38,419 nucleotides of DNA, taken from contig SYHX01000065.1 of assembly GCA_005799025.1 (NCBI GenBank), positions 1-38,419 of the forward strand. Reading direction: 5' to 3'. Positions 3 through 29,930 of the stretch are shown one piece after another; position 1 is the stretch's first letter; each line of letters begins with the position of its first letter. Below the pieces are notes generated by a model. The model searched no databases, was not told the DNA's origin, and worked only from the letters and a program-made list of their open reading frames with translations. The position numbers were made by a program, and so were the translations under genes. Origin of the DNA: Bacteroidota bacterium (lineage in GTDB: Bacteria > Bacteroidota > Bacteroidia > UBA7662).

Positions 3-3000
3 GGCTATTATTTCAACCGATGCCAGAATATCCAAGTGGTTGCCAACAAATTAACAGGTTCCGGAACAACCTACTACGGATACTATATAATTGGGTCCAT
101 GGGTATGGTCTTTCGTGAAAACGAGCTGTATGGAAATATGAATTCTTACGGTTACTACTTTAGTAATATTAGTGGTTCCGCAAGCATGCCCAACCAACTC
201 ATCAACAATGTGGTTTCCTGTAATTTCTCTGCTGTGACGCCCAGGGTTCTTTATGTGAGCACTAGTGTGACCGATGGGTTAGATTATCTTGAACTCCACC
301 ACAACAGCTTTGAGGCCAGAGTAAACAGTAGTTCAACAACGGCAAATGGCCTCGTTTATATAATAGGCGGATCAGCGACTTCAACAACGATGAGCCGTTT
401 AATCATGCAGAACAATATATTCCGCTTGGTACGGGCCGGCGGTACTTTTTCAGCAACTGGGCTCTTCTATTTTTCAGGTAACTGGCTTATTGACTCCACA
501 ATCTCAAACTACAATTTGCTCCATTTTGAAGGCCAAGGAACCTCACCTACCGTCCGTGTGTCTGCAACAAATTACACACTTGCAACCTGGAGGACAACTT
601 TTGGCGAGGATCTCAACTCCCTCGATAGCGACCCTTTGTTTAGTGGGGTTAATAATTTAACTCCTTTTGGGCTTTCACCTGTCCGTAATGCAGGCATACC
701 CAGCTTTGTGACCAACGATATTGCGGGCAACCTGCGCGATGCCAACCCCGATATGGGAGCTTATGAGATTCAATTGGGTGCCGCGGATGTTTATGTCGAA
801 GCCATCCTTAACCCACCCGCTATCGTTCAGCCCTCAACCAATTATCCGGTGACAGCGCGTATCCTCAACGCATCGTTGAACCCCTTAACTTCGGTCCGTT
901 TGCATTACCAAATGGGGTCACAACCCGAAGTCGTTCAGGTATTTACGGTAAGTTTACTTAGCGGAGATAGCGCGGTTTTGACCTTCACTCAACCCTTAAC
1001 AACAGCAACATCGGGAAGCCTTCGTTTAACCGTATGGTCAGATCTGCCCAATGGTGCAAACGATGCCAATCCCATAAATGATACCGCAAGGATTTTGTTA
1101 TGTCAACCGATAACGACAGGAACCTACACCGTTGGTCAATCGACTGGTAATGATTTTAACAATTTTGCTGACTTATTTGAAATCCTTGGATGCGGAGGAG
1201 TTTCAGGTTCCGTGGTGGTTCAACTGAATGCGGACAACAATTTGTTGAATGAACAAATTATAATTCCGTCCATTCCTGGATTAAGTGCAAGTAATCCTCT
1301 CATCCTTGATGGAATGGGCGATACTGTTTCGGCCGCCAACACCCAAGCAAGCTTGGGTGTACTTGGATTTTTGAATGCGAGGCATGTCATTGTTCGAAAT
1401 TTTGTCATCCGGGCCCAAGGAACCGCCACAGGGGTCATTTTTGCCAATGCGGACTCGTGCGGTTTGGTTCAAAATACGATTCTTGCCGACGTTACATCAA
1501 CGTCTTCCAGCATCAACGGTATTGTTACCAGCGGGTCACTTAATTCGACCACCAGTGCTTCCCTAAGCAAGGCCCTTTTGATCGATTCCAATTTAATCAA
1601 GGGCGGTTATTATGGAATCAGGCTGTACGGTGATGCAGGACTATACAGCGCTTCAAATACCGTAAGCAACAATGTCTTTGAGGATTTCTATATTTATGGA
1701 ATCTATACGTATTATCAGGATGGCGCAAAAATTCGCAACAACGACATCAGCAGGCCATCGAGGAGCACACTGACAACATTCTACGGAATTTACAACTTGT
1801 ATTTTTTGCGCGGTGAGATTTCCGGAAACCGTGTTCACAACGGCTTTGGCGCGAATACCTCCGGGTCCTCCAGCGTTTACGGGATTTTTGTATCCAACTC
1901 TCCATCCCCTGCGAATGAGCCCAACTTGATTTATAACAACTTGATTCACAACATGAATAACGGAACCGGTTCTATTTATGGCGTTTACAATATTGGTTCA
2001 TCCAACACCCATTGGTACCACAATACCTTGATTTTTGATCAAGCTTCCAGTGCATCTGGTTTGGTGTACGGCGCTTACTTCTTGGGATCGGGCAGCAATA
2101 ATCATTTCAAAAACAACATTGTTTCGATAAGTCGCGGTGGATCTGGCGCTAAATATTGCATCTATTATGTAGGAACCTCTGGAATGGTTTCCGATAACAA
2201 TGATTTGCACATGGAGTCCACTACTGGGACTGTGGGTATAGGTTATAACGGAGCGGCACAAACATCCCTTGCCGCTTGGAGAACCGCTTCAGGTGGAATC
2301 TTTGACTTGAATTCCACCGATGCTAATCCGCTTTTTGCCTCCACGACCACCCTGCCATTGGTACCCACCAACTGGCCTTTGAACAACATCGGTGAAAATC
2401 TGGGCAATATCGTACCCCTAGACTTCGCAGGGCAATCAAGATCCTTAACCCCCGATCCAGGTGCCTACGAGTTTACGGTCAACGGGTGTTTTGGACTTTT
2501 GAACCTCCGGGCAGATCAGATTCAAGCATACAGCGGACGGGTTTTGTGGGCATCAGCCGCTGCACAATGGGAATTGGAATACGGCTTAGCGGGCTTTGCC
2601 CAGGGAAGCGGGACGTTATTGACTTTAAGCCAGTCGAATGTGGTGCTTAACGGATTGTTGTCGAATACCGCATACCAGGTGTATGTCCGTGAAGTGGGAT
2701 GCAGCAGCGGACCCGGTGTTTGGACCACTGTAGGATTTACCACCAGAAGAGATTTTGACCTCTCAGCGGTTGATTTGATCGCCCCAACTAGCGGTCAATG
2801 CACCAATGCTAGCCTGCCTGTTCGGATGGTTGTAGCGAATACTGGGCTTCTGCCGATGACAGGATACACAGGTCGGGTGAGGGTCAGCGGACCAACCATC
2901 GCAACCATTACAGCTACCTCTACCAATACCCTGGCTCCTGGTCAAAAAGACACGTTATTGGTCGGTAACCTCAACCTCTTCCCTGGACGCTTGGCGTCAT

Positions 3001-4994
3001 TTGAAATAACGGTAAGCAATCCGACTGATTTCTTCCGATTCAACGATACCCTCGTCATTGACAAAGAGTTTATCGGGGTCGATGCTGGACAAGACACCAC
3101 TATAACTCCGGGGGATACGGCCACTTTGAATGCTGCCATCTTTGGATTTGCATCCAGTTCGGTATTGAATGCAAGTCCTGGGGCTAACAATGGTTCATCA
3201 GGCGTTTCTTTCAACGTGCGTGCTTTACAAACTGCTTACATTGATACGATTTACACCAATATCTACGGGATATTGGGCAATCCAGCCACAGTTGAATTGT
3301 GGTACAATCCCACCGCTATCAATGGAGCCCCTAACATATCCTCGACAGGCGGTTGGACCCAAATTCACAGTGCTTATCCTACAACTGTTGGTAATTCAGC
3401 TTTCGCCAATTCCTTAGCAAACAGCGCTATTGCTTTACCTGCAGGATTCAATATTCCTGCCGGATCAACCTACGGTTTCTTCGTAACGGTGGCATCGGGT
3501 GGTAGTACCGCTTACAAAACCCACATAGTAGGATCGGTGGACACTTTTGTCAACAATGCAATCGTCATCTCAACCGGACCCAACGTGGGTTATGGCGGAT
3601 CGGTGCCTTTGCCGACCTTTCATCCAAGGCAGTTTTGCGGTGCCATATCGGTTCGCAATCGTGCTGTCGTCCATTGGACAGAACAAGGTTCAAGTACGGT
3701 ATTGGCAACGGGTAATACGCTGCGAGTAGCTCCTGCTTTGACGACCTCCTATGTGGCAACCTTAGTGGATAGTTTGTGTCCCTCGTCGGATGCAGTGACC
3801 GTGTTCAGCGGAACAGTGAACGAAATCACCGGTTTGTTCCGTTACAACAACACCTCCCAAACCATCATGACCAACAGTGTCGTTCAGCTCAAAGACCCCC
3901 AGAATGTAATTGTCATGGCGGTCCCCACAAACTCCACCGGATCTTATTTGTTAAGTCCTGTAGCTGCAGGAAATTACACCATCACCGGGACTACCAACAA
4001 ACCATGGGGAGGTGTCAGCGCGACGGATGCCTTGGGAATTTCCAGAAGTTTTACAGGCGCAGCGCCCTTGGTAGGTTTGAGGCTTAAAGCAGCAGACGTG
4101 AACGGTTCCAATACCGTAAATTCCCTCGATGCTTTGACCACATCAAGGCGCTTTTCTGGTTCCGTTTCATCCTTTGCAGTGGGTAACTGGGCTATTGAAA
4201 ATTTACCTATATCCTTCAGCTCAGGCACCATTACTCGAAACTTTTATGGAATATGTTACGGTGATGTTAACGGATCGTATAATCCAAACACCGCCTTGCG
4301 ACAAGAACCCAAAATTCAACTCATTGCGCAAGGCTCTGTGGAGGCAGATAAGACCATGAGCTTACGCGATTGGACTTGGCGTGCTCATCAAAACACAACC
4401 TTAGGAGCCCTATCTTTGGTTCTTACCTTCCCTGAAGGAGTGCATATTAATGAGGTGCGCTCGCTAATGAACGATGGAAATTTTGATTATCATCAGAATG
4501 GTCGTGAACTCCGGATTTCATGGTACAGCCTCGAGGAAAATCATAAGAAAGCAGGAGATCCTTTGTTTGAAATGGATATTAGTCAATTACCAAGCAGCGG
4601 ACTAAATCTATCGAATCTTGTTGTTGAAGAACTGAGCGAGGCAGCATCACCGCTTGCCGAGGTTTATGATTTAACTACCGTAAGAGTCCCCGAGATAGCA
4701 GGAATATCAGAAACGGAGTGGACTATCTTCCCTAACCCAAGTTATGGTCAGGCTAAGCTTCGTATTGTCGCTCCTGAAAATGGGGTTTGTATAGTTCGCA
4801 TAGTGGATGCTCAAGGTCGCTTGATTTGCTCGGAATCCTCTTTTGACCTATCCAAGGGTGCGCAGGAGCTTTCTTTGCCTATAGAGGGGCAGGCTGATGG
4901 CCTTTATTTGGTTCACGTCGCTTATTCTCCCGAAAAGTCCACCAGCTCTGTTAGGGCATTCACCAAAAATTTCTCTTTGAATATCCGTAAATAA
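3..4994 (+). CDS. Giant modular T9SS-sorted surface protein (5' end missing)
   Basis: The frame is open to the window edge, so the start lies upstream; the first in-frame GTG at 36 falls inside a beta-helix repeat and is not a real start. Modules by nucleotide position: end of one parallel beta-helix with a terminal GAYE motif (3-775), CARDB-like domain (about 775-1110), a second beta-helix with many short NN-rich coils (about 1240-2250) ending in another DPGAYEF (near 2475), fibronectin III-like (about 2490-2755), CARDB-like (about 2750-3075), a PKD/Ig-like domain split by an inserted domain (about 3088-3800), a carboxypeptidase-regulatory-like segment (about 3810-4060), a dockerin-like Ca-binding loop DVNGSNTVNSLDAL (from about 4096), a cohesin-like domain (about 4310-4660), and a type A sorting domain with FPNPS (about 4716-4991). 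It is probably exported by T9SS and anchored at or released from the cell surface as an adhesin or matrix protein; no enzyme motif is visible. Confidence 0.9.
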   Translation, partial: GYYFNRCQNIQVVANKLTGSGTTYYGYYIIGSMGMVFRENELYGNMNSYGYYFSNISGSASMPNQLINNVVSCNFSAVTPRVLYVSTSVTDGLDYLELHHNSFEARVNSSSTTANGLVYIIGGSATSTTMSRLIMQNNIFRLVRAGGTFSATGLFYFSGNWLIDSTISNYNLLHFEGQGTSPTVRVSATNYTLATWRTTFGEDLNSLDSDPLFSGVNNLTPFGLSPVRNAGIPSFVTNDIAGNLRDANPDMGAYEIQLGAADVYVEAILNPPAIVQPSTNYPVTARILNASLNPLTSVRLHYQMGSQPEVVQVFTVSLLSGDSAVLTFTQPLTTATSGSLRLTVWSDLPNGANDANPINDTARILLCQPITTGTYTVGQSTGNDFNNFADLFEILGCGGVSGSVVVQLNADNNLLNEQIIIPSIPGLSASNPLILDGMGDTVSAANTQASLGVLGFLNARHVIVRNFVIRAQGTATGVIFANADSCGLVQNTILADVTSTSSSINGIVTSGSLNSTTSASLSKALLIDSNLIKGGYYGIRLYGDAGLYSASNTVSNNVFEDFYIYGIYTYYQDGAKIRNNDISRPSRSTLTTFYGIYNLYFLRGEISGNRVHNGFGANTSGSSSVYGIFVSNSPSPANEPNLIYNNLIHNMNNGTGSIYGVYNIGSSNTHWYHNTLIFDQASSASGLVYGAYFLGSGSNNHFKNNIVSISRGGSGAKYCIYYVGTSGMVSDNNDLHMESTTGTVGIGYNGAAQTSLAAWRTASGGIFDLNSTDANPLFASTTTLPLVPTNWPLNNIGENLGNIVPLDFAGQSRSLTPDPGAYEFTVNGCFGLLNLRADQIQAYSGRVLWASAAAQWELEYGLAGFAQGSGTLLTLSQSNVVLNGLLSNTAYQVYVREVGCSSGPGVWTTVGFTTRRDFDLSAVDLIAPTSGQCTNASLPVRMVVANTGLLPMTGYTGRVRVSGPTIATITATSTNTLAPGQKDTLLVGNLNLFPGRLASFEITVSNPTDFFRFNDTLVIDKEFIGVDAGQDTTITPGDTATLNAAIFGFASSSVLNASPGANNGSSGVSFNVRALQTAYIDTIYTNIYGILGNPATVELWYNPTAINGAPNISSTGGWTQIHSAYPTTVGNSAFANSLANSAIALPAGFNIPAGSTYGFFVTVASGGSTAYKTHIVGSVDTFVNNAIVISTGPNVGYGGSVPLPTFHPRQFCGAISVRNRAVVHWTEQGSSTVLATGNTLRVAPALTTSYVATLVDSLCPSSDAVTVFSGTVNEITGLFRYNNTSQTIMTNSVVQLKDPQNVIVMAVPTNSTGSYLLSPVAAGNYTITGTTNKPWGGVSATDALGISRSFTGAAPLVGLRLKAADVNGSNTVNSLDALTTSRRFSGSVSSFAVGNWAIENLPISFSSGTITRNFYGICYGDVNGSYNPNTALRQEPKIQLIAQGSVEADKTMSLRDWTWRAHQNTTLGALSLVLTFPEGVHINEVRSLMNDGNFDYHQNGRELRISWYSLEENHKKAGDPLFEMDISQLPSSGLNLSNLVVEELSEAASPLAEVYDLTTVRVPEIAGISETEWTIFPNPSYGQAKLRIVAPENGVCIVRIVDAQGRLICSESSFDLSKGAQELSLPIEGQADGLYLVHVAYSPEKSTSSVRAFTKNFSLNIRK

Positions 4995-5077: not shown

Positions 5078-6529
5078 ATGATACCTGCTAATATGAACTT
5101 TACATCATTGAATTCCTGTTTCCTGAGCATGGGATTGATCTTTATCCTCATTAACCCAACAACTAACGGTCAATCCTTGAACGGCCTATCCTTGGATGGA
5201 GTAGATGATTATGTGGCAGTAAGCGGATCCAGCGGGTTGATCGCGAATCTTGGTTCGTTTTCCATGGCTTGTTGGGTTTACCCCACCAATGCGACACCCT
5301 CTTTTCCAGATTTTGATGGAATTATAGGGTTTAGAAACGATGCCAACGCTGATTTTTATTTACTTCAATTAAGTGCTTCAACCTACGAGGCCAGATTTAG
5401 AAACAGTACAGGTATAATGCACACCTTAACCCAAGGGCCGGTCCTCCTGAATCAATGGCAACACCTTGCTTTGGTTTACACAGGCTCTAGCCTTCGTTTC
5501 TATCACAACGGCAACCTTACAGGAAGCATGAATGCAACGGGGAACATTACCAACACTGGTATTCCCCTCGAAATCGGACGTCTTAGTTTCAATAATAATC
5601 CATTTTATTTGAACGGGTCAATCGATGAGGCGGCTCTGTGGGGAAGAGCACTCTCGGACAACGAGGTAATGTGCCTATTCAAACAACAACTGGACAGTGC
5701 CTCTGCCGGAATACTATGCTATTACCCTATGGACCAAGGTATTCCAGGTGGTAATAATGTTTCTGTGCCATACTTGGAAGATGTCAAAAGTGGATACCAC
5801 GGATTTTTCTATGGGATGAATCTTACAGGTTCAAATTCAAACTTTGTGACGGGGAGGCAAATGATGGGGATTCTTCGAGATACCTTGTGCAGAGGTGAAT
5901 CGCTTGTTTACGGCGGCAATAATTACCAGCAGGCAGGGCAATTTCGGGTAAGATTACCACGACTAGGCCAATGCGATTCTACGGTATGCATTGTAATCAA
6001 AGTTGACACTGCCGATCGAAGAATATCCGTCAACCGGAATCAGTTGAACGCAGTTCAGTCAGGAGCACTTTCCTATCAATGGATTAACTCCGCTGGGACC
6101 ACGATTGCAGGGGCAACAAATCGAAACTACACAGCGACAAGCAACGGAACATACCGAGTTGTTATGCGTATAGGTAGCTGCGTGGACACCTCCTACCCTG
6201 CCTTGGTTAGTAGTGTTGGGCTGCCTGAGGACCTCAACACGCGTACCAATCGTGCCCTAACAATTTATCCAAATCCAGGGACAAATCAAGTTCAGCTCTT
6301 GCCTTTGGGCAAAGGAATAGCTCGGATATTGGAGGTTTATTCTATCGACGGAAAGGTCATGCACCGACAAGTCTTGAATAACGAAGTCGGTGAACCTATT
6401 CAAGTGGTAACCTCGGAATGGCCCAACGGCTTATACCAATTTCTACTAAAGCTGCAACCGTTGGAATCGTGTCTATCCAATCACCGCCATCAAGAAACCT
6501 TGTTCATCTCCACCTGGTTAAAGCAATAA
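5078..6529 (+). CDS. LamG-like surface protein with T9SS tail
   Basis: A 483-residue secreted protein. Residues 1-33 form a signal peptide (hydrophobic LSMGLIFILIN then NGQ); an alternative start is Met6 at 5093. Residues about 36-215 are a concanavalin/LamG-type jelly roll: it opens with LDGVDDYV and ends with IDEAALWGRALSDNEV, the usual signature of Bacteroidota LamG_3 domains. Then come a short CRGES...G...CDS module (about 268-310) and an Ig-like segment with YQWI (about 325-380), both common in T9SS cargo. The C-terminus starts with IYPNPG, a type A sorting domain, but the last 20 residues do not look like the usual sorting-domain end. It follows the terminator at 5012-5043, so it is probably a separate transcript. 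A carbohydrate-binding or adhesive role is inferred; no catalytic domain is seen. Confidence 0.88.
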   Translation: MIPANMNFTSLNSCFLSMGLIFILINPTTNGQSLNGLSLDGVDDYVAVSGSSGLIANLGSFSMACWVYPTNATPSFPDFDGIIGFRNDANADFYLLQLSASTYEARFRNSTGIMHTLTQGPVLLNQWQHLALVYTGSSLRFYHNGNLTGSMNATGNITNTGIPLEIGRLSFNNNPFYLNGSIDEAALWGRALSDNEVMCLFKQQLDSASAGILCYYPMDQGIPGGNNVSVPYLEDVKSGYHGFFYGMNLTGSNSNFVTGRQMMGILRDTLCRGESLVYGGNNYQQAGQFRVRLPRLGQCDSTVCIVIKVDTADRRISVNRNQLNAVQSGALSYQWINSAGTTIAGATNRNYTATSNGTYRVVMRIGSCVDTSYPALVSSVGLPEDLNTRTNRALTIYPNPGTNQVQLLPLGKGIARILEVYSIDGKVMHRQVLNNEVGEPIQVVTSEWPNGLYQFLLKLQPLESCLSNHRHQETLFISTWLKQ

Positions 6530-11382: not shown

Positions 11383-12768
11383 TTACTTCCCGATACAGAA
11401 TTTCGAAAAGATAGCGCTGAGCAAATCATCAGCAACGATATCCCCGGTGAGTTCTGCCAAAGACCGTAACACTGCCCTCATCTCCTCAGCCAGCAGCTCA
11501 GTGCCTAGGTTTTGCTGAAGTCCTTGAGCAATGCTTTGCAATACCGAAGCGGCTTGGTCGAGAGATTGTCTTTGCCGCGCATTCACGGCCACAAAATCAC
11601 CTGAGAGACGACCCAGGTCCACCATATCGCGCATCCGTTTCCTTAACAAGTCCATACCAAGGCCTGTTTGGGCCGAAATTTCCACCAAATCCGGAAAGCG
11701 CTGCAGCCAATCTGAACGATTGCCATATCCTTCAGGTAAATCCACTTTGTTCAAGACCACCAAAACCTTGCTTTGGGTTCCCGCTAAACTCAGGAGGTTC
11801 ATCCAAGCCTCATCAGGGTATTCATCGACGCTGGCCACCATCAAAACAAGGCCGGCATGGGTGAGTTTTTGACGGGTTCGTGCTACGCCCATTTGTTCAA
11901 CAGCATCGGTCGATTCGCGAAGACCCGCAGTGTCCATCAACCGAAATATAATTCCGTCTATCACGCAAGGCTCTTCAATGGTATCCCGAGTAGTCCCGGG
12001 CTGATCCGAAACCAAAGCCCGGGCATCATGCAACAATGCATTGAGCAAAGAAGATTTCCCAGCATTCGGCCTACCTGCCAACACCGTAGGGATCCCTTTG
12101 CGGATAACCTCCCCAGCCGCAAACGAATCTCTCAGGGAAACAACCTGCATTCGAACGGATAACACCAGTTCTTTTAAAGCCGTACGGTCGGCAAGCTCCA
12201 CATCTTCTTGCGAAAAATCCAATTCCAATTCCAACAAGGCAGCAAACTCCGTCACGCGTTCACGCAATACGGTAATTTTCCGAGCGAAGCCACCCTCCAA
12301 CTGGTTCATCGCTAGTCGATGCGCTAACGGATTTTCAGCGGCAATCAAGTCGGCGACAGCCTCCGCTCTGCTGAGGTCCATTTTGCCGTTAGCGAAAGCC
12401 CTCCAGGTGAACTCCCCTGGCTGGGCCATCCGAACCCCAGAAATCTCAGTGCATAAAGTCAAAAATCGGTTGACAACGAAGGGTGACGCATGCAGGCCCC
12501 ATTCCACACAATCCTCCCCAGTGTAGGACGCCGGAGCCTCAAAGGAAGTGACCAGCGCCCGGTCTAACAAGTCATCTCCATCCCAAATCGAAACCAACCT
12601 AACAGTTCGGGCAGGAAATATTGACGCATTGCACGACTTCTTGGTTAGATATGACACGACGACCCTGCTCAATTTTCCTGAAACCCGCACCAGACAAACC
12701 GCACCTTGCCCAGCAGGGCTCAGAGGGGCAACAATGGTGTCTTCAGACTGGTACAACTGGGCTTGCAT
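11383..12768 (-). CDS. mnmE: tRNA modification GTPase MnmE
   Basis: MnmE with MnmG installs the carboxymethylaminomethyl group on wobble U34 of certain tRNAs. The 461 residues match the usual length. The N-terminal folate-binding domain starts with DTIVAPLSPAGQGAVCLVRVSG (residues 10-31, abridged here) and has QPGEFTWRAFANGKMDL (116-132). The GTPase domain carries GRPNAGKS (232-239), TTRD (259-262), DTAG (279-282) and NKVD (340-343). The C-terminal end is FCIGK, with the conserved Cys needed for the reaction. The divergent phosphotransacetylase-like gene starts 112 bases away. Confidence 0.98.
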   Translation of the reverse strand: MQAQLYQSEDTIVAPLSPAGQGAVCLVRVSGKLSRVVVSYLTKKSCNASIFPARTVRLVSIWDGDDLLDRALVTSFEAPASYTGEDCVEWGLHASPFVVNRFLTLCTEISGVRMAQPGEFTWRAFANGKMDLSRAEAVADLIAAENPLAHRLAMNQLEGGFARKITVLRERVTEFAALLELELDFSQEDVELADRTALKELVLSVRMQVVSLRDSFAAGEVIRKGIPTVLAGRPNAGKSSLLNALLHDARALVSDQPGTTRDTIEEPCVIDGIIFRLMDTAGLRESTDAVEQMGVARTRQKLTHAGLVLMVASVDEYPDEAWMNLLSLAGTQSKVLVVLNKVDLPEGYGNRSDWLQRFPDLVEISAQTGLGMDLLRKRMRDMVDLGRLSGDFVAVNARQRQSLDQAASVLQSIAQGLQQNLGTELLAEEMRAVLRSLAELTGDIVADDLLSAIFSKFCIGK

Positions 12769-12880
12769 GAGGCTATTTTTCGCGAAATTGCAGGTGAAAT
12801 TTGATTAACAACGATGAAAATTAACTTGGCTTTCCTAATTTGGTGGTTCATTCAATTGCATACTGCGCTACGGTTATCCC

Positions 12881-13288
12881 ATGGATAAGCTCGACAAAAT
12901 ACGCTCTTGGGCAAGGAATTTGGAAGATCCAATCCTCTGCTTTGTGGAAGGCGGTCAACCTGAGGTTATCAAATTGACTAAAGCCATCTTGGAAGAAAAA
13001 ATGGCCGAGGTAGTTTTGCTGGGCGATGAACTTGAGATCTTTGATCAGTGCAAGAAATACCGTTTGCCCGAAAGTCGGCTTTACGGTGTAATCAATCCCC
13101 TTAATCCTCCTGATTTGGAAAATTTGCTGGATGAAATGATGGAGGAATCCGGGGAAACCGATCGCAAAACGGCCCTCAAATGGATTAAGAACCCATTGAA
13201 TTTGGCGCAGACTTTGTGGCTACGAGGCGATGTGGATTGGGTGATTGATTCTTTGGAACCCATTCCAGACCCTCCCATTCAAGAATAA
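12881..13288 (+). CDS. Phosphotransacetylase N-terminal-half-like protein
   Basis: A 135-residue protein. By eye it aligns with the first part of the PTA/PTB phosphotransacetylase domain: FVEGGQPEVIKLTKAILEE corresponds to the LPEG..R..KAA strand-helix, VVLLGDELEI to VLLGN..EI, then a MEESGETDRKTALKWIKNP segment corresponding to the KGMT..A...L.DN helix, and TLWLRGDVDWVID to the D.LVSG strand. It stops there. The second half of the enzyme, which holds the catalytic Ser-Arg pair and Asp of known Pta enzymes, is absent, and only 7 bases separate the stop from a converging gene, so no remnant of it exists downstream. It is probably not an acetyltransferase; a regulatory or binding role is inference. 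Confidence 0.7.
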   Translation: MDKLDKIRSWARNLEDPILCFVEGGQPEVIKLTKAILEEKMAEVVLLGDELEIFDQCKKYRLPESRLYGVINPLNPPDLENLLDEMMEESGETDRKTALKWIKNPLNLAQTLWLRGDVDWVIDSLEPIPDPPIQE

Positions 13289-23446: not shown

Positions 23447-23476
23447 CAAATATAGTGGTTTTTAACGGGAAATCAA
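23447..23476 (-). promoter_or_regulatory. rpmE2 promoter (-33 TTG, 19-base spacer, -7 TATATTTG)
   Basis: On the minus strand TTG (23476-23474) is followed after 19 bases by TATATTTG (23454-23447), a full match to the Bacteroidota promoter TTG-N17-23-TAnnTTTG. The -7 box ends 21 bases before the rpmE2 ATG. The -33 element lies within the last codons of the giant surface protein gene, whose stop is at 23464-23462. Confidence 0.75.
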
Positions 23477-26400
23477 GAGCTTCTTGGTCAATTTACGACC
23501 TTCAAAGTTCAATGTGTAATAATAAAGGCCCTGGGCAAGGGATGTTGTTTCTATGCCCTCCTTGTACCATCCCCCTTCCAAAAGGCCCAGAGCACGGCCC
23601 CAAACCGGCCTACCATAGAGATCACGTAATTCAAGGCTAGCCTTGCCACCTTTGGGTAAATAATACGCCACCGTGGTTAAGTCCGAGGCAGGGTTAGGAA
23701 AATTCTGTGACAAAACCAAGCCGATATTGTTGAGCTCTGGAACCGAAACAACCTCACAGGGCCCAGGCAACAACTCGAAACAAAAATCATCAATGGACCA
23801 ACCCTCGCCCTGGAACGCATAATCTGAACCAAAGCGGAACCGGAAGATAACCTGAGCGTTAACTGTGGTATTGAATATCTGCTGCATGGGCGCATACAAG
23901 GAAGGAGAAAGCCCAGACCATCCGAAACCTACGATATTTTGTTGTGTATTGAATACTGCTAGGGCTTGCACAATCGCGTTGTACCATTCATTGGTCAACG
24001 TATCAAGATACCCAAAGGAATTCCACTTGACCCCTCCGTCCGTTGAATATTCAATCGTGCCACCGTCACCATGAAGAGGACGAGTAGTGGTATCGTTCGC
24101 AAAAAAATCAGTCATCCACAACGTTTTGAACTTTACGACATAGCAAGAATCCTTGATCGTTTGAAAAATAGGAGTGTACAAAGCAGAGGAGTCATAGGGC
24201 TTGTACAAACTATCTGCTGAGATATACCAAGCATTGGGCGATGAAGCCGCACCATTAATTAAGCCCTTGGCGGGAGACCCAAAGGTCCAAGAATTTCCTG
24301 AGCTCCTTAAAGTGACGGGATTTCGAGTCAACCATGAGGGTAGCCCCTCGTCAAAATTATTGCAATACGGGTAACTATCAATTAGAGGAAAACCTACCGC
24401 ATCCGAACACGCCGTATCATCAAAAGGGAAATTGTCCGCAAGGCCATTAGGTAGGGACGAAGTCACGCAAAGAGCATTGGAACCTAAATTCAGGTTGAAG
24501 GTATTCGAGAACGTGTACAAAGTATCTTTCATGAACGATAAAGTCATTGGTACGACAAGATTCTGAACTGAGGATCCGTTGAGATTGAGATTTAAATTAA
24601 TATTACTCAAAATAAAATTCGGATTCGCATTATTTCGAATTCGCGCCTTGGCTGTCACTGGAATATTGGCCGTAGGAAATGGAGGATCATACAAAACCTC
24701 CACAACTTCGGCACCATTAGGTACCGAATTATAAATGATAAGATCATCTATGAAATTCCCATTACGGTCAGTTCCCCCCGTTCCTGCAGGGAGAAATCGG
24801 TACCTACACTTGGATTGAAACTCTATCACCAAAGGATCACCCATCACATAACACGTATCCAATCCAAAATCAATGGTTTGAAAGGGATTATTTGCTGCCG
24901 TAGCGGTTAGAGGTTGGAGCGTTGGGCCCACCTGACGACCGTTGGCCACTACTCTCAGCAATGAAATTCTTTTGTCGGCCCCGTTATCCCCTGCAACTTG
25001 CAAGAGTTTGAATCGAATGCGAATATTGTTCCGATTGGCGGTATTGACCGGAAAAACCACCCTGGAAAGGTAAGTCCCGTTCCAAGAATCAGCCCACGGA
25101 TTCAAAGGGATAGTGGTATTGAATGAGGCTCCGGAGAACTCAGTGCCCATATACAATGCATAATCGGGTGAATTATTGATGGCAGGCACCGGTGCATAGC
25201 GAACATCCGTCACTGCATTCGAAAGTGAAGTATCGCAATAGGGTGCATAACCCTGACGCTCAAAATTGTTCGTATGGGTCAGATTGAGAGCTTCGCGTCC
25301 AAACAAAGTGACGGCTAAAGTATCATTGTTACGAATGGGATCGATAGTACCACCGTTCACAAACAACCGAATAGTGGTATAACCGTTAGGAATATTCGCC
25401 GGGGTGCCAATGACGATAGTATCATAAGAATTCGGCTGAATTACCCTCGTAAAATTTTGAAAGACCGGGGGCAAGGTGTCTATTCGGTAACCTGCAGTAA
25501 ACGTAGTGGTCGGTGAATGACCAATATTCCGAATCCTAAATTTTAGTTGTCTTAAACCGCTTGGATAACAAATTGCAGACGTGGGAACAATATTATTGAC
25601 CATGATTAAGTCATTCACCGGAATTGCCTTAACACAACGGGTAATGGTATCATTCGTTGTTCGCGCATCCCCCGTGAGTTGGGTATACACCTTCAAGGTA
25701 TAGGTCCCTGGAGGTAGAGGGGACTGAATGGCCGGCAAGGTTACGGTAGCTTCTGTGGCCGGTGGCAATGGGATAGTGTAGAGGTACGGACTCGCACCCA
25801 GAACAGGGGGCAAGTTATCGTATCGGTAATTGAAAGGAATGGAAAACAAGGTATCACCACCAAAATTCTTAATCACAACACGTATTGTATCTATTGCTTT
25901 GAGGGAATCGGGGCAAACCACCGGCTTCAAAATTTGTCTCATCCCCACCTCTCGCGCTGGTGGGGGGATAATAGCCCAATTGTCGACAATCACACCCTCA
26001 GAAGGAGTAAAACCGCTTTGGAAATCAAGCCGAAAGCGAACTCGATTATTTCGGTAATTGAACTGAGTAGGTAACTCCAAACTATGTTCTAAATAATCCG
26101 CTAGGCCGCCACTGCTTCCGGAATTTCCGTTCCATGCAGGACCCGCGATACCACCGATTGTACCTGTGGAATTGTACCAATTCACTCCTGTTGGATCTGA
26201 AATCTGTCCTAAAGTTTGCCAAGATGTAAACAGTTCGTCCGCGTAAGAAATTCGAAAGGCGGAACCCGAATTGCCCAACCTTCGGTTTATTCTTAGTTTG
26301 AGCGTTGTATTGACACCGCTTCGGAAATTATAAAGTGGAGACAACACATACCCACCTTGTCCTGAAGTCGGATTCCCGTTGAGCACAGTGCCCCAAACAT

Positions 26401-29400
26401 TCGGCGAGCTGAAAGCTGCATTCAACTGTGGACCCGAGGGAACACCTCTCTGCCAGGGGTTTGCCGCAGTCCCCATGGTCACGGGGAGCCAGTTGTCCGG
26501 TAACACGTCAAAATTATCGTTGCTAGGAACGGACAAGATGGGGACACCGTACATCTGAACGGAGGTGGAATCGTTGGAGCTGTTCCCATCCTGACCCAAA
26601 GAAGTATACGCCGATAAAGTAAACCACCGCAGGGGTGCCGACATAATCGAGTCCAAGCGAAGGGCTGTTGTGGTAACGGCACCTGGTCGGAGTGAATCAG
26701 TCAATCGAACTTGAGTGGTTTGGGTAAATGTTCCAATCCTTACGGTCACAGGAATTATAGTATCCAAAATTGTACGAAGTCCAAAATTCTGGAGGCGAGC
26801 AAAAACCGCAAAGGGTTCGCCACCCTTGACCTGGTAATTGTTGTTGGGGATAGATATGAGCGAGCCAGCAGCATTGGAAGAAATTAACTGAACGCCGACG
26901 TCTCGAAGAGGCGGCATAGCCACTTGAATATCATCGAACGCTACACCGTTAGAGGTGGTAGCCCCGTTGGATCGGAATACCATACGAAAGCGAACCTTGG
27001 AGGCCGTACCACCAAAATTCACACCTTTGAAAAGCGAGTCCGGCAGACGAATTTCAGATCTAGCCCATCCCCCGTTTCTTCCATCCCATCCCCCGCTAGT
27101 TGTCAAACCCGAAATGCTAGATCGATTATACCAATTGCTCTGCGCTGAATTAGGCAATGCGCTGTAAATTCCGAGTTTCTGCCAATTGGGGACTGAAATG
27201 TTGCGGGTGTATTCCACCCAGAATCCATCCCCCAATCCGGGGCTAGTAGGATTGGTGGTGCCACCACTATCAATGGCTCGCCATTGCATAAAATTCAGGT
27301 ACGACTGTTCTGAATTAAGGAAATTAAAGACCGGAGATTCCAACACATAAAAAGCATTATTTGGGTAATTACCGTTCAAAGAATCCACCGTCCAAGCATT
27401 CGAACCCTGGTAGGCGCTATTTAGGATGCTCTTGCCGGGGGTACCACGAACCCATCCCCCAGGCGTATATACCGGGTTTGCAACGGGTCCGGTAAGCACA
27501 AAGGGTGACCACAAGGCATTATTAACTTCAAAGCCATCCTGGTAAGGCATGTTCAATCCGTTCAATGCTATGAACATTCTTGGATTTTGAATAGACGGAC
27601 TCACACTCAAATTTCTTCGAACTGACCTATCAAATGCCCTGATGTAATAGGACACCGTATCACTATCCGAGACCGCCGGAACCTGAGCAAACCAATTGCA
27701 ATATGAATCATTTTCGCCCGTAATCGTCACCGCATCGACACGCAGGGAACCTGTTTGGGCATAGATCTGTCCTGTCGTTGCAGGGGCGTATACTGAAGTA
27801 CCGGGAGCAAAAACGGTAATCAACCTTACCCGAAATGAGCTATTATTATCGACTCCGGTGATTCCAGTGAAATCCGCAGTTCTGTTGTTGTACCATTGGT
27901 TACCTCCTAGATTTGCTCGGTATAAATTTACCGTGTCGGTACCGACTCCGGTATATGGGATCCATGTGGCTCCGTTAAGAGAGTACTCCAATCGTACAAA
28001 GCGAGATGCAGTTGCTCCATGGTACATATCAAAACTCAATTTGACTTTACGCTTACCGGTGGTCGCTACATTGAATTGTAAACCACGAGCGGTATTGCTA
28101 TTCACCGCAGGATATTGATTGGTATTCCAAGAGAAATTGGTGGCGCCTGCAGCAGAGTCCGAAGAATTGTTCGTAGAGGTAGCAGCATTTCCCAATACAA
28201 AAGTACCCGTAGGTGCATTCACCAAGGCGGCAGTCCCTGTGCCCCGATGCGGGGTCGGGGCATTCACGCCGCCGGGGATAGTTGTCGCCGATGCGCCGTT
28301 GAAATTCCATCGAGCCAGGGTATCAAGAACAGCCACACCTCTGCTCATGCCCAACATTTGGTAAGGTCCGTTGTCCACCTTATAGTGCAGATAGGCTGTA
28401 TCAATATCCGATCCATCGGTTAGGCGAACAGGGATATTGAAAGGGCCTAGATTATACACAGGACCAAGAAATACATCGCATTGCTGAAAGGTTGCAGGCC
28501 ACTCGACCAAAGGTGGGCCTGATGCATTAAACGTGTAAAAAGCTGTAGTATCGGGTAATTTTTTCCGAAAACGTCTCGGTGAATTGTCCACCGCTTCAAT
28601 GTAGTATTGAACAGAATCTCCGTCCACGGTAAAAATGGAGTCTCTGTAATTAATCCCCCCCACATTGGGCATTTTACGAGTGACAAAAGGGCCGTTGTTC
28701 AGGGAATACACCAAGATCGCGCTATCAATTCCAGAGGCATCACTCATTTGAGCATTTATCACAAAGGGGCCGGGACTAAATTGGTATCCTGTAACTGGAG
28801 CAGAATGCACCACCGTTGGAAAAAAAGATGCCAAATAGGTGATGAACGAGTCTGCTAAATTGGTTTGCGGCGGGAAAAACTTAACATTGCGTCTGGGCGA
28901 GGAGTCCAATGCTCGGATTAAATATCGAACCGTGTCGCCGTCTGCAATCCGCGAGCTATCCAAATTGGCCAACCATGTCAAGGTGCTTCCTTGACGCAGC
29001 ATACGCACCGAATCCAAGGATCCTGAATTGATGCGGTAGAAAAGATGAACCCCCAAGGTATCGATACCCGTAGAATCGCAGCCCAGGGAATCCCGAATCG
29101 TTGCCGAGAATGTTTGGTTTATATTGAATTGAAGGCCAGTTAATGCAGTATGGGTAATGACAGGAGGAATAATTTCAGAAAATGCTGAGGTCACGAGGAT
29201 TGAATCCACCAACCAACCGTATCCCGGGGTTGGTGAGCCCAGACCATTATTATTTCCATCTTTCAGCAGAAAACGAATACGGACATCGGCCCGATTCGAA
29301 ACGAAAGGGGATAGGTCAAATCGCTCTTGTTTCCACCATGCCGCTTGAGGCAATGCACCGAGATTACCACCAGCCAACCAGTCTGCCGGATAAGATTGTT

Positions 29401-29884
29401 GATGAAACCGGCTACCACCGGTGACTAAAGTCTGTGGAAAGCTAATTGAAGTTCCCAAGTATCGACAAGGGGCCCCCAAAAAACGTATCCATGTCGCCCC
29501 CTGATCAACCGAATATTGAACAATTGCGGTATCGTTGAATTCCAATTTTGCAATGTGCGCAAAGTCCAACCACACTTTGAAATGCCCTAGAGTCGAAAAA
29601 GGCTTAAGTTCTAATATCGACGTCTGTGCGGAATTGATCCGGCCACGAACGGATAAACCGACAGGCGTTGCAGGAAACCGGTAGGTACTCACCGTATCCC
29701 ACAGGCCCGTAACAATAACCGAATCCAAGGGGTTAGCATTCTGAAAAGTGGTGTAAAATCTTGCGGTAATTCCGGGGGGAAGTACTGGCTGGGCAAGGGA
29801 CTGCCAAGGTGCAATCAAAGAACAACCCAAAAGGATCCACATGAACCCTCTAATCGATACTAAAAACGGCTTGATAAAATTCAT
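23462..29884 (-). CDS. 2140-residue multi-domain T9SS surface protein
   Basis: The start is ATG 29884, giving a clean signal peptide ending SLAQ (about residue 31). Domains by residue: an N-terminal jelly-roll-like domain (about 32-240); three related Ig-like units each ending DGDTVRYLIRALD-S-RR-type strands (about 242-342, 356-455, and 459-521 plus 725-769); a separate sandwich domain nested in the third unit (about 522-724); alternating choice-of-anchor J/MAM-like lectin folds (about 782-989, 1122-1312, 1839-2039), another lectin-like block (about 1534-1719) and CARDB-like linkers; and a type A sorting domain with FPNPAS (about 2049-2140) ending KKLLISR. It is exported by T9SS and displayed or released; an adhesive role is inferred. 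No protease or glycosidase motif is seen. It lies 46 bases after the E1 gene. Confidence 0.9.
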   Translation of the reverse strand: MNFIKPFLVSIRGFMWILLGCSLIAPWQSLAQPVLPPGITARFYTTFQNANPLDSVIVTGLWDTVSTYRFPATPVGLSVRGRINSAQTSILELKPFSTLGHFKVWLDFAHIAKLEFNDTAIVQYSVDQGATWIRFLGAPCRYLGTSISFPQTLVTGGSRFHQQSYPADWLAGGNLGALPQAAWWKQERFDLSPFVSNRADVRIRFLLKDGNNNGLGSPTPGYGWLVDSILVTSAFSEIIPPVITHTALTGLQFNINQTFSATIRDSLGCDSTGIDTLGVHLFYRINSGSLDSVRMLRQGSTLTWLANLDSSRIADGDTVRYLIRALDSSPRRNVKFFPPQTNLADSFITYLASFFPTVVHSAPVTGYQFSPGPFVINAQMSDASGIDSAILVYSLNNGPFVTRKMPNVGGINYRDSIFTVDGDSVQYYIEAVDNSPRRFRKKLPDTTAFYTFNASGPPLVEWPATFQQCDVFLGPVYNLGPFNIPVRLTDGSDIDTAYLHYKVDNGPYQMLGMSRGVAVLDTLARWNFNGASATTIPGGVNAPTPHRGTGTAALVNAPTGTFVLGNAATSTNNSSDSAAGATNFSWNTNQYPAVNSNTARGLQFNVATTGKRKVKLSFDMYHGATASRFVRLEYSLNGATWIPYTGVGTDTVNLYRANLGGNQWYNNRTADFTGITGVDNNSSFRVRLITVFAPGTSVYAPATTGQIYAQTGSLRVDAVTITGENDSYCNWFAQVPAVSDSDTVSYYIRAFDRSVRRNLSVSPSIQNPRMFIALNGLNMPYQDGFEVNNALWSPFVLTGPVANPVYTPGGWVRGTPGKSILNSAYQGSNAWTVDSLNGNYPNNAFYVLESPVFNFLNSEQSYLNFMQWRAIDSGGTTNPTSPGLGDGFWVEYTRNISVPNWQKLGIYSALPNSAQSNWYNRSSISGLTTSGGWDGRNGGWARSEIRLPDSLFKGVNFGGTASKVRFRMVFRSNGATTSNGVAFDDIQVAMPPLRDVGVQLISSNAAGSLISIPNNNYQVKGGEPFAVFARLQNFGLRTILDTIIPVTVRIGTFTQTTQVRLTDSLRPGAVTTTALRLDSIMSAPLRWFTLSAYTSLGQDGNSSNDSTSVQMYGVPILSVPSNDNFDVLPDNWLPVTMGTAANPWQRGVPSGPQLNAAFSSPNVWGTVLNGNPTSGQGGYVLSPLYNFRSGVNTTLKLRINRRLGNSGSAFRISYADELFTSWQTLGQISDPTGVNWYNSTGTIGGIAGPAWNGNSGSSGGLADYLEHSLELPTQFNYRNNRVRFRLDFQSGFTPSEGVIVDNWAIIPPPAREVGMRQILKPVVCPDSLKAIDTIRVVIKNFGGDTLFSIPFNYRYDNLPPVLGASPYLYTIPLPPATEATVTLPAIQSPLPPGTYTLKVYTQLTGDARTTNDTITRCVKAIPVNDLIMVNNIVPTSAICYPSGLRQLKFRIRNIGHSPTTTFTAGYRIDTLPPVFQNFTRVIQPNSYDTIVIGTPANIPNGYTTIRLFVNGGTIDPIRNNDTLAVTLFGREALNLTHTNNFERQGYAPYCDTSLSNAVTDVRYAPVPAINNSPDYALYMGTEFSGASFNTTIPLNPWADSWNGTYLSRVVFPVNTANRNNIRIRFKLLQVAGDNGADKRISLLRVVANGRQVGPTLQPLTATAANNPFQTIDFGLDTCYVMGDPLVIEFQSKCRYRFLPAGTGGTDRNGNFIDDLIIYNSVPNGAEVVEVLYDPPFPTANIPVTAKARIRNNANPNFILSNINLNLNLNGSSVQNLVVPMTLSFMKDTLYTFSNTFNLNLGSNALCVTSSLPNGLADNFPFDDTACSDAVGFPLIDSYPYCNNFDEGLPSWLTRNPVTLRSSGNSWTFGSPAKGLINGAASSPNAWYISADSLYKPYDSSALYTPIFQTIKDSCYVVKFKTLWMTDFFANDTTTRPLHGDGGTIEYSTDGGVKWNSFGYLDTLTNEWYNAIVQALAVFNTQQNIVGFGWSGLSPSLYAPMQQIFNTTVNAQVIFRFRFGSDYAFQGEGWSIDDFCFELLPGPCEVVSVPELNNIGLVLSQNFPNPASDLTTVAYYLPKGGKASLELRDLYGRPVWGRALGLLEGGWYKEGIETTSLAQGLYYYTLNFEGRKLTKKLLISR
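28226..28273. repeat. Nested GC-rich inverted repeat inside the giant gene
   Basis: GCCCCGA (28241-28247) and TCGGGGC (28255-28261) form a perfect 7-bp hairpin, enclosed by GGCGGC (28226-28231) and GCCGCC (28268-28273). It lies in coding sequence near the beginning of the nested domain and has no T run, so it is not a typical terminator. Confidence 0.5.
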
Positions 29885-29906
29885 AGGTATTTTGAAGTCA
29901 AGGCTA

Positions 29907-29913
29907 CAAAATA
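29907..29913 (-). promoter_or_regulatory. TATTTTG element before the 2140-residue protein gene
   Basis: On the minus strand TATTTTG ends 22 bases before ATG 29884, in the 46-base gap after the E1 gene. It is the one-base-shorter variant of TAnnTTTG. A separate promoter here would allow the surface protein to be expressed independently of the upstream metabolic genes. Confidence 0.3.
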
Positions 29914-29930
29914 ACCCCAAAAAACGCTAT

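Follow-up and report, generated by a model that had tools for sequence, protein, structure and literature searches.

A stand-alone first segment of the phosphotransacetylase domain retained in one order of Bacteroidia

Main finding

The window, that is the whole stretch of 38,419 nucleotides that was analysed, carries a gene whose 135-residue product corresponds to the first segment of domain I of a phosphotransacetylase (PTA) and is referred to here as the half-PTA. Distribution, phylogeny and dN/dS ratios show that the half-PTA had a single origin, earlier than the diversification of the order, and that selection has maintained it from then on. It probably now serves a different, non-enzymatic function, a reading drawn from its retention without an active site, usually beside a tRNA-modification gene. 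The features of the locus are as follows.

11383..12768, minus strand: mnmE (tRNA modification GTPase), head to head with the half-PTA gene (Pfam TrmE_N, MMR_HSR1, MnmE_helical)
12769..12880, no strand: divergent intergenic region of 112 bases common to half-PTA and mnmE, conserved in the genus
12881..13288, plus strand: half-PTA gene, 135 aa, first segment of PTA domain I only, predicted as four parallel strands with helices between (ORF, Pfam, AlphaFold model, PDB matches)
13049..13051, plus strand: Cys57, invariant in 14/14 half-PTAs and mostly Ala or Ile in PTAs (alignment)
13142..13153, plus strand: residues 88-91, with a two-residue gap where PTAs have R-x-x-K-G, contacts of the CoA 3'-phosphate (14 half-PTAs against 26 PTA domains; role of R and K from the excerpted texts of PMC6461089 and PMC7902834)
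13296..14156, minus strand: DUF2400 gene, convergent neighbour 7 bases off (Pfam PF09674, 4.9e-53)

The half-PTA frame is intact. The convergent DUF2400 gene has its stop 7 bases beyond the end of this frame and there is therefore no space for a PTA remainder downstream, which bears out the statement of the first-pass annotation that the catalytic half is missing and that the neighbouring gene leaves no room for a remnant. Elsewhere in the window the frames at 36-4994, 5078-6529 and 23462-29920 are large and have, by eye, the look of secreted proteins that are rich in repeats and carry a sorting-like tail at the C-terminus.

Fold and family assignment

Residues 7-122 of the half-PTA matched Pfam PTA_PTB (PF01515) with an E value of 7.3e-8 and a score of 32.6 bits, above the curated cut-off of 24, and this assignment to the family extends over profile positions 6-121 of 319 only. 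The NCBIfam phosphotransacetylase models gave weak matches that fell far under their full-length cut-offs. A match to Pfam YaeQ (E 0.0042), under its cut-off, was taken as chance. When a profile of the orthologues was compared with PDB sequences the best match was PgPta, the Pta of P. gingivalis (6iow, E 1.9e-9, profile positions 7-129), with the MaeB PTA domains next, and the N-termini of half-PTA and PTAs line up in the alignment. An AlphaFold (AF2) model of the half-PTA as a free domain, built with 14 orthologues in the alignment, reached a pLDDT of 92.7 and a pTM of 0.85. This predicted model matches PTA domain I; the top PDB matches were all phosphotransacetylases and MaeB PTA domains, the best having a Z of 14.0 over 131 residues at 2.5 A, and the best row outside the PTA/PTB family had a Z of 7.4. 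The protein is thus the N-terminal part of PTA/PTB that it had been proposed to be from its letters. The motifs on which that proposal was built fared less evenly, since the overall alignment held but the supposed 'KGMT' reads GETDRK, a degenerate form without the R and K that PTAs conserve in R-x-x-K-G; a D.LVSG-like strand is present as VDWVIDS, but the SG or AG that follows it in PTAs is missing. The member from family f2 had no Pfam match of its own, and its predicted structure had a pLDDT of 51.8 from an alignment of three near-identical rows only.

PTA features missing from the half

The comparison of residues used 14 halves, being the 18 loci minus the near copies L004, L005, L010 and L020, and 26 PTA domains, being 29 loci minus L066 (a duplicate of L019), L090 and L091; the last two are MaeB regions of two members of the order in which the half profile had no match at E 0.01. 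Long frames in the comparison were labelled MaeB by length alone, and L061, L064 and L065 (714-722 aa) are presumably E. coli-type Pta rather than MaeB.

In the excerpted text of PMC6461089, domain I of PgPta comprises residues 1-145 and 302-336 and domain II, which dimerises, residues 146-301; Arg89 and Arg135 contact the phosphates of acetyl-CoA, and D309, S311, R312 and D318 matter for catalysis. The half-PTA ends before all of these functional residues except the place of Arg89. It stops within domain I and so has neither the two-domain cleft nor any of the dimerising domain II; the C-terminal segment of domain I is missing with it, and the four catalytic residues all lie beyond its C-terminus. 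In MaeB, R535 contacts the CoA 3'-phosphate, R535 mutants lose acetyl-CoA binding, and binding runs through R535 and K538 (PMC7902834, excerpted text). Judged from the alignment, PgPta Arg89 would match the arginine of R-x-x-K-G (position 93 in the chain, less a tag of four residues) and MaeB R535 would fall in the same column. That Arg is present in 26/26 PTA domains as against a gap in 14/14 half-PTAs, and the Lys column holds K in 23 of the 26 PTA domains and G (7/14), P (5/14) or other residues in the halves, so that contacts of the R535/K538 type were found in none of them. With domain II, the C-terminal segment and the key arginine gone, CoA binding in the known mode and catalysis have been lost, and by the alignment and the published residue roles the PTA reaction and the Pta- or MaeB-style holding of CoA would be impossible. 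The suggestion in the first-pass annotation of an acyl-phosphate or CoA sensor using the PTA site finds no support, given these missing parts and CoA-binding residues and the lack of an acetate kinase in the order (0/21 genomes by profile search).

The break lies near the boundary of domains I and II (145/146 in PgPta, PMC6461089, excerpted text), as it would if the half-PTA were one subunit of a split PTA with its catalytic half encoded elsewhere. That arrangement is most improbable, PF01515 having found only the half in the window genome and, among 13 genomes of genera g1 and g2 searched, only halves in the nine that had any match (9/9).

Distribution and origin

In the window genome (92.6% complete) the half-PTA is the sole PF01515 match and no full-length PTA was found. 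A profile search detected an equally short orthologue in 17 of the 21 genomes of the order, and in all 18 half-PTA loci that were read the frame is intact and 126-136 aa long from the chosen start, standing alone with no fusion to a malic enzyme. The four genomes in which it was not found all belong to the window's genus. In G003 the contig C3 (3719 bases) ends inside mnmE at codon 393 and the start of C83 cuts the DUF2400 gene (L087, L088), contig C55 of G004 begins within DUF2400 (L089), and in G004, G005 and G006 similarity to MnmE was confined to the level of the G-domain (best E about 1e-15), as other GTPases give. The mnmE gene is near-universal in bacteria and is also missing or broken in these genomes, and the four absences were therefore read as assembly gaps; in G003 and G004, two other species of the genus, the locus would be scored as absent although it is probably the assembly that is incomplete. 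In G007 the locus was found on two contigs (L005, L020) with slightly different sequences, and contamination of this genome is 5%; the double locus looks like mixed strains, not duplication.

The PTA profile matched 42/395 genomes in a sample of the class, of which 13 were members of the order and the other 29 had their matches in frames of 334-814 aa. In a sample of the phylum 97/395 genomes matched and, among the matches listed, all but the window genome had frames of at least 326 aa. As far as these samples and the sensitivity of the search reach, a single order contains the half as a stand-alone protein. Viral contigs yielded no relative to the half-PTA profile, the protein of the window found none in plasmids, and neither a described stand-alone half-PTA nor a Pta-MnmE link was found in the open-licence PMC literature, where nothing turned up on Arg 87 of the M. 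thermophila enzyme either. In a 500-kb genome of the class (G044:C1:320461-320691) a 712-aa frame matched positions 3-80 only of the PTA profile and may be a MaeB whose PTA domain has shrunk.

Malic enzyme was detected in 8 of the 21 genomes of the order, with none in the window's genus and none in g2. In those eight one and the same long frame holds both the full-length PTA and the malic-enzyme match, contigs being broken in G017, and since PTA there shares the malic-enzyme frames the order showed no full-length Pta that stands alone.

The orthologues are under purifying selection, with dN/dS (Nei-Gojobori, within four genera) of 0.039-0.130 in 24 of 25 pairs, the remaining pair being identical. 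A tree of the 14 halves and 26 PTA domains placed the halves in one group (support 99/98) on a long branch, for which the software gave a long-branch warning, and did not tell Pta and MaeB apart as the source. Since orthologues occur in 17/21 genomes, the absences are read as assembly gaps and dN/dS is 0.04-0.13, the half-PTA is no local truncation or pseudogene; the first-pass annotation had rightly taken the intact frame for a retained gene, and neither of the results that would have spoken against it, want of a PTA fold or full-length homologues in close relatives, was obtained. A decaying leftover of a vanished pta, or of the PTA portion of MaeB, that persists only by chance might be looked for in a genome without full-length PTA and acetate kinase and in genera (g1 and g2) without MaeB, but it is already contradicted, and is very unlikely indeed, in view of the low dN/dS, the intact frames at 18/18 loci and the single clade on its own long branch. 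Moreover, the half coexists with MaeB-PTA in other genera, and when genera of the family are compared the half-PTA is 43-51% identical to the window copy, a range like that of MnmE (45-54%).

Gene neighbourhood

The gene mnmE directly adjoins the half-PTA in 15/15 loci of two families, f1 (14 loci, 13 genomes) and f3 (one locus). In f1 the two genes stand head to head and are divergent, forming no operon. In f3 the half-PTA is followed by mnmE on the same strand and the stop and start codons overlap (TGATG, L079 4159-4163). On the other side the gene next to the half-PTA is DUF2400 in 12 of the 14 f1 loci; DUF2400 was not found in L008 and lies ~1.1 kb off in L013. The mnmE side is thus the more stable of the two, at 15/15 against 12/14. 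In the three genomes of f2 the half-PTA is kept beside a DUF2805 gene and mnmE is on other contigs, so that any link with MnmE is not mirrored in the gene order of that family. The link drawn from gene adjacency is suggestive, and it is not required for the half-PTA to be retained.

Conserved residues and possible function

Residues G48, P73 and D119 are common to half-PTAs and PTAs, and K34, C57, R61 (K once), G69, K96 and K103 (R once) are conserved in the halves only. K34 and K96 occur in 14/14 half-PTAs, positions 61 and 103 are K or R in 14/14 and position 31 is K or R in 13/14, in proteins that are acidic overall (pI 4.3-5.9). Two of the positions specific to the family, 57 and 69, may owe their conservation to packing within the fold instead of marking a functional site. 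The invariance of Cys57 in 14/14 halves, where PTAs have another residue, could mark the new active site of a small enzyme, but the column is Ala or Ile in 22/26 PTAs, which suggests a buried packing site, and no other conserved set of catalytic appearance was seen; such an enzyme is improbable.

The half-PTA would accordingly be seen as a small stable protein made from the first segment of PTA domain I and working without catalysis. It is rather likely to be a non-catalytic binding protein, and we infer how it binds: the surface that once lined the cleft and packed on domain II would now be free to grip a protein partner. The leading candidate for that partner, tentative as it is, would be MnmE or its complex, since the genes are adjacent across two families and overlapping in one; MnmE is the GTPase responsible for modifying U34 in tRNAs. 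It is conceivable, at somewhat longer odds again, that the MnmE tRNA-modification machinery has in the half-PTA an accessory or regulatory subunit of its own, built from a metabolic enzyme domain, which couples wobble-base modification to metabolism or to complex assembly in this order.

A small-molecule sensor is also a possibility, if a doubtful one. Here the free domain I would bind a phosphorylated ligand other than CoA through the conserved lysines and arginine and signal by altered contacts with a partner; the family-specific basic positions (31, 34, 61, 96, 103) in an otherwise acidic protein could point this way, and in MaeB non-catalytic PTA domains serve to sense acetyl-CoA (PMC7902834, excerpted text). 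Against it, the known PTA ligand site is a cleft between two domains of which half is missing, and the arginine for the 3'-phosphate has been lost in 14/14 halves.

Comparison with known systems

The half-PTA shares with Pta, e.g. PgPta (6iow/6iox), the domain I fold and the order of its elements, but it lacks domain II, with dimerisation and half of the cleft, the C-terminal catalytic Asp/Ser/Arg/Asp segment, and both CoA-binding arginines (roles from PMC6461089, excerpted text). The likeness to the PTA domain of MaeB (6zn9, 6zng) lies in the reuse of the PTA fold without catalysis. MaeB has the complete two-domain PTA and uses R535 and K538 to bind acetyl-CoA (PMC7902834, excerpted text), whereas the half-PTA has about a third of it and neither residue; MaeB also has a malic enzyme, and none was found in the window's genus. 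The same PTA domain is contained in the long Pta of the E. coli type (about 714 aa). This long form is a full two-domain PTA with additional N-terminal domains, and the half-PTA has neither.

Non-catalytic enzyme domains that have been reused often keep their ligand site, as MaeB does. The half-PTA preserves by itself, across an order, about a third of a two-domain enzyme; the dimerisation domain and the ligand residues are gone, and the genomes have no Pta-Ack pathway. It offers a clean small case of how a piece of a Rossmann-like enzyme can turn into a protein in its own right. It is also a likely source of misannotation as phosphotransacetylase.

Two further observations concern the f3 locus. 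Just upstream of the half-PTA-mnmE pair (L079:3540-3755) there is a tandem repeat of the 7-base unit CCATTCT in about 31 copies. In the same locus TACCTTTG ends a few bases ahead of the start codon, and we take it to look like the Bacteroidota -7 box of a nearly leaderless transcript.
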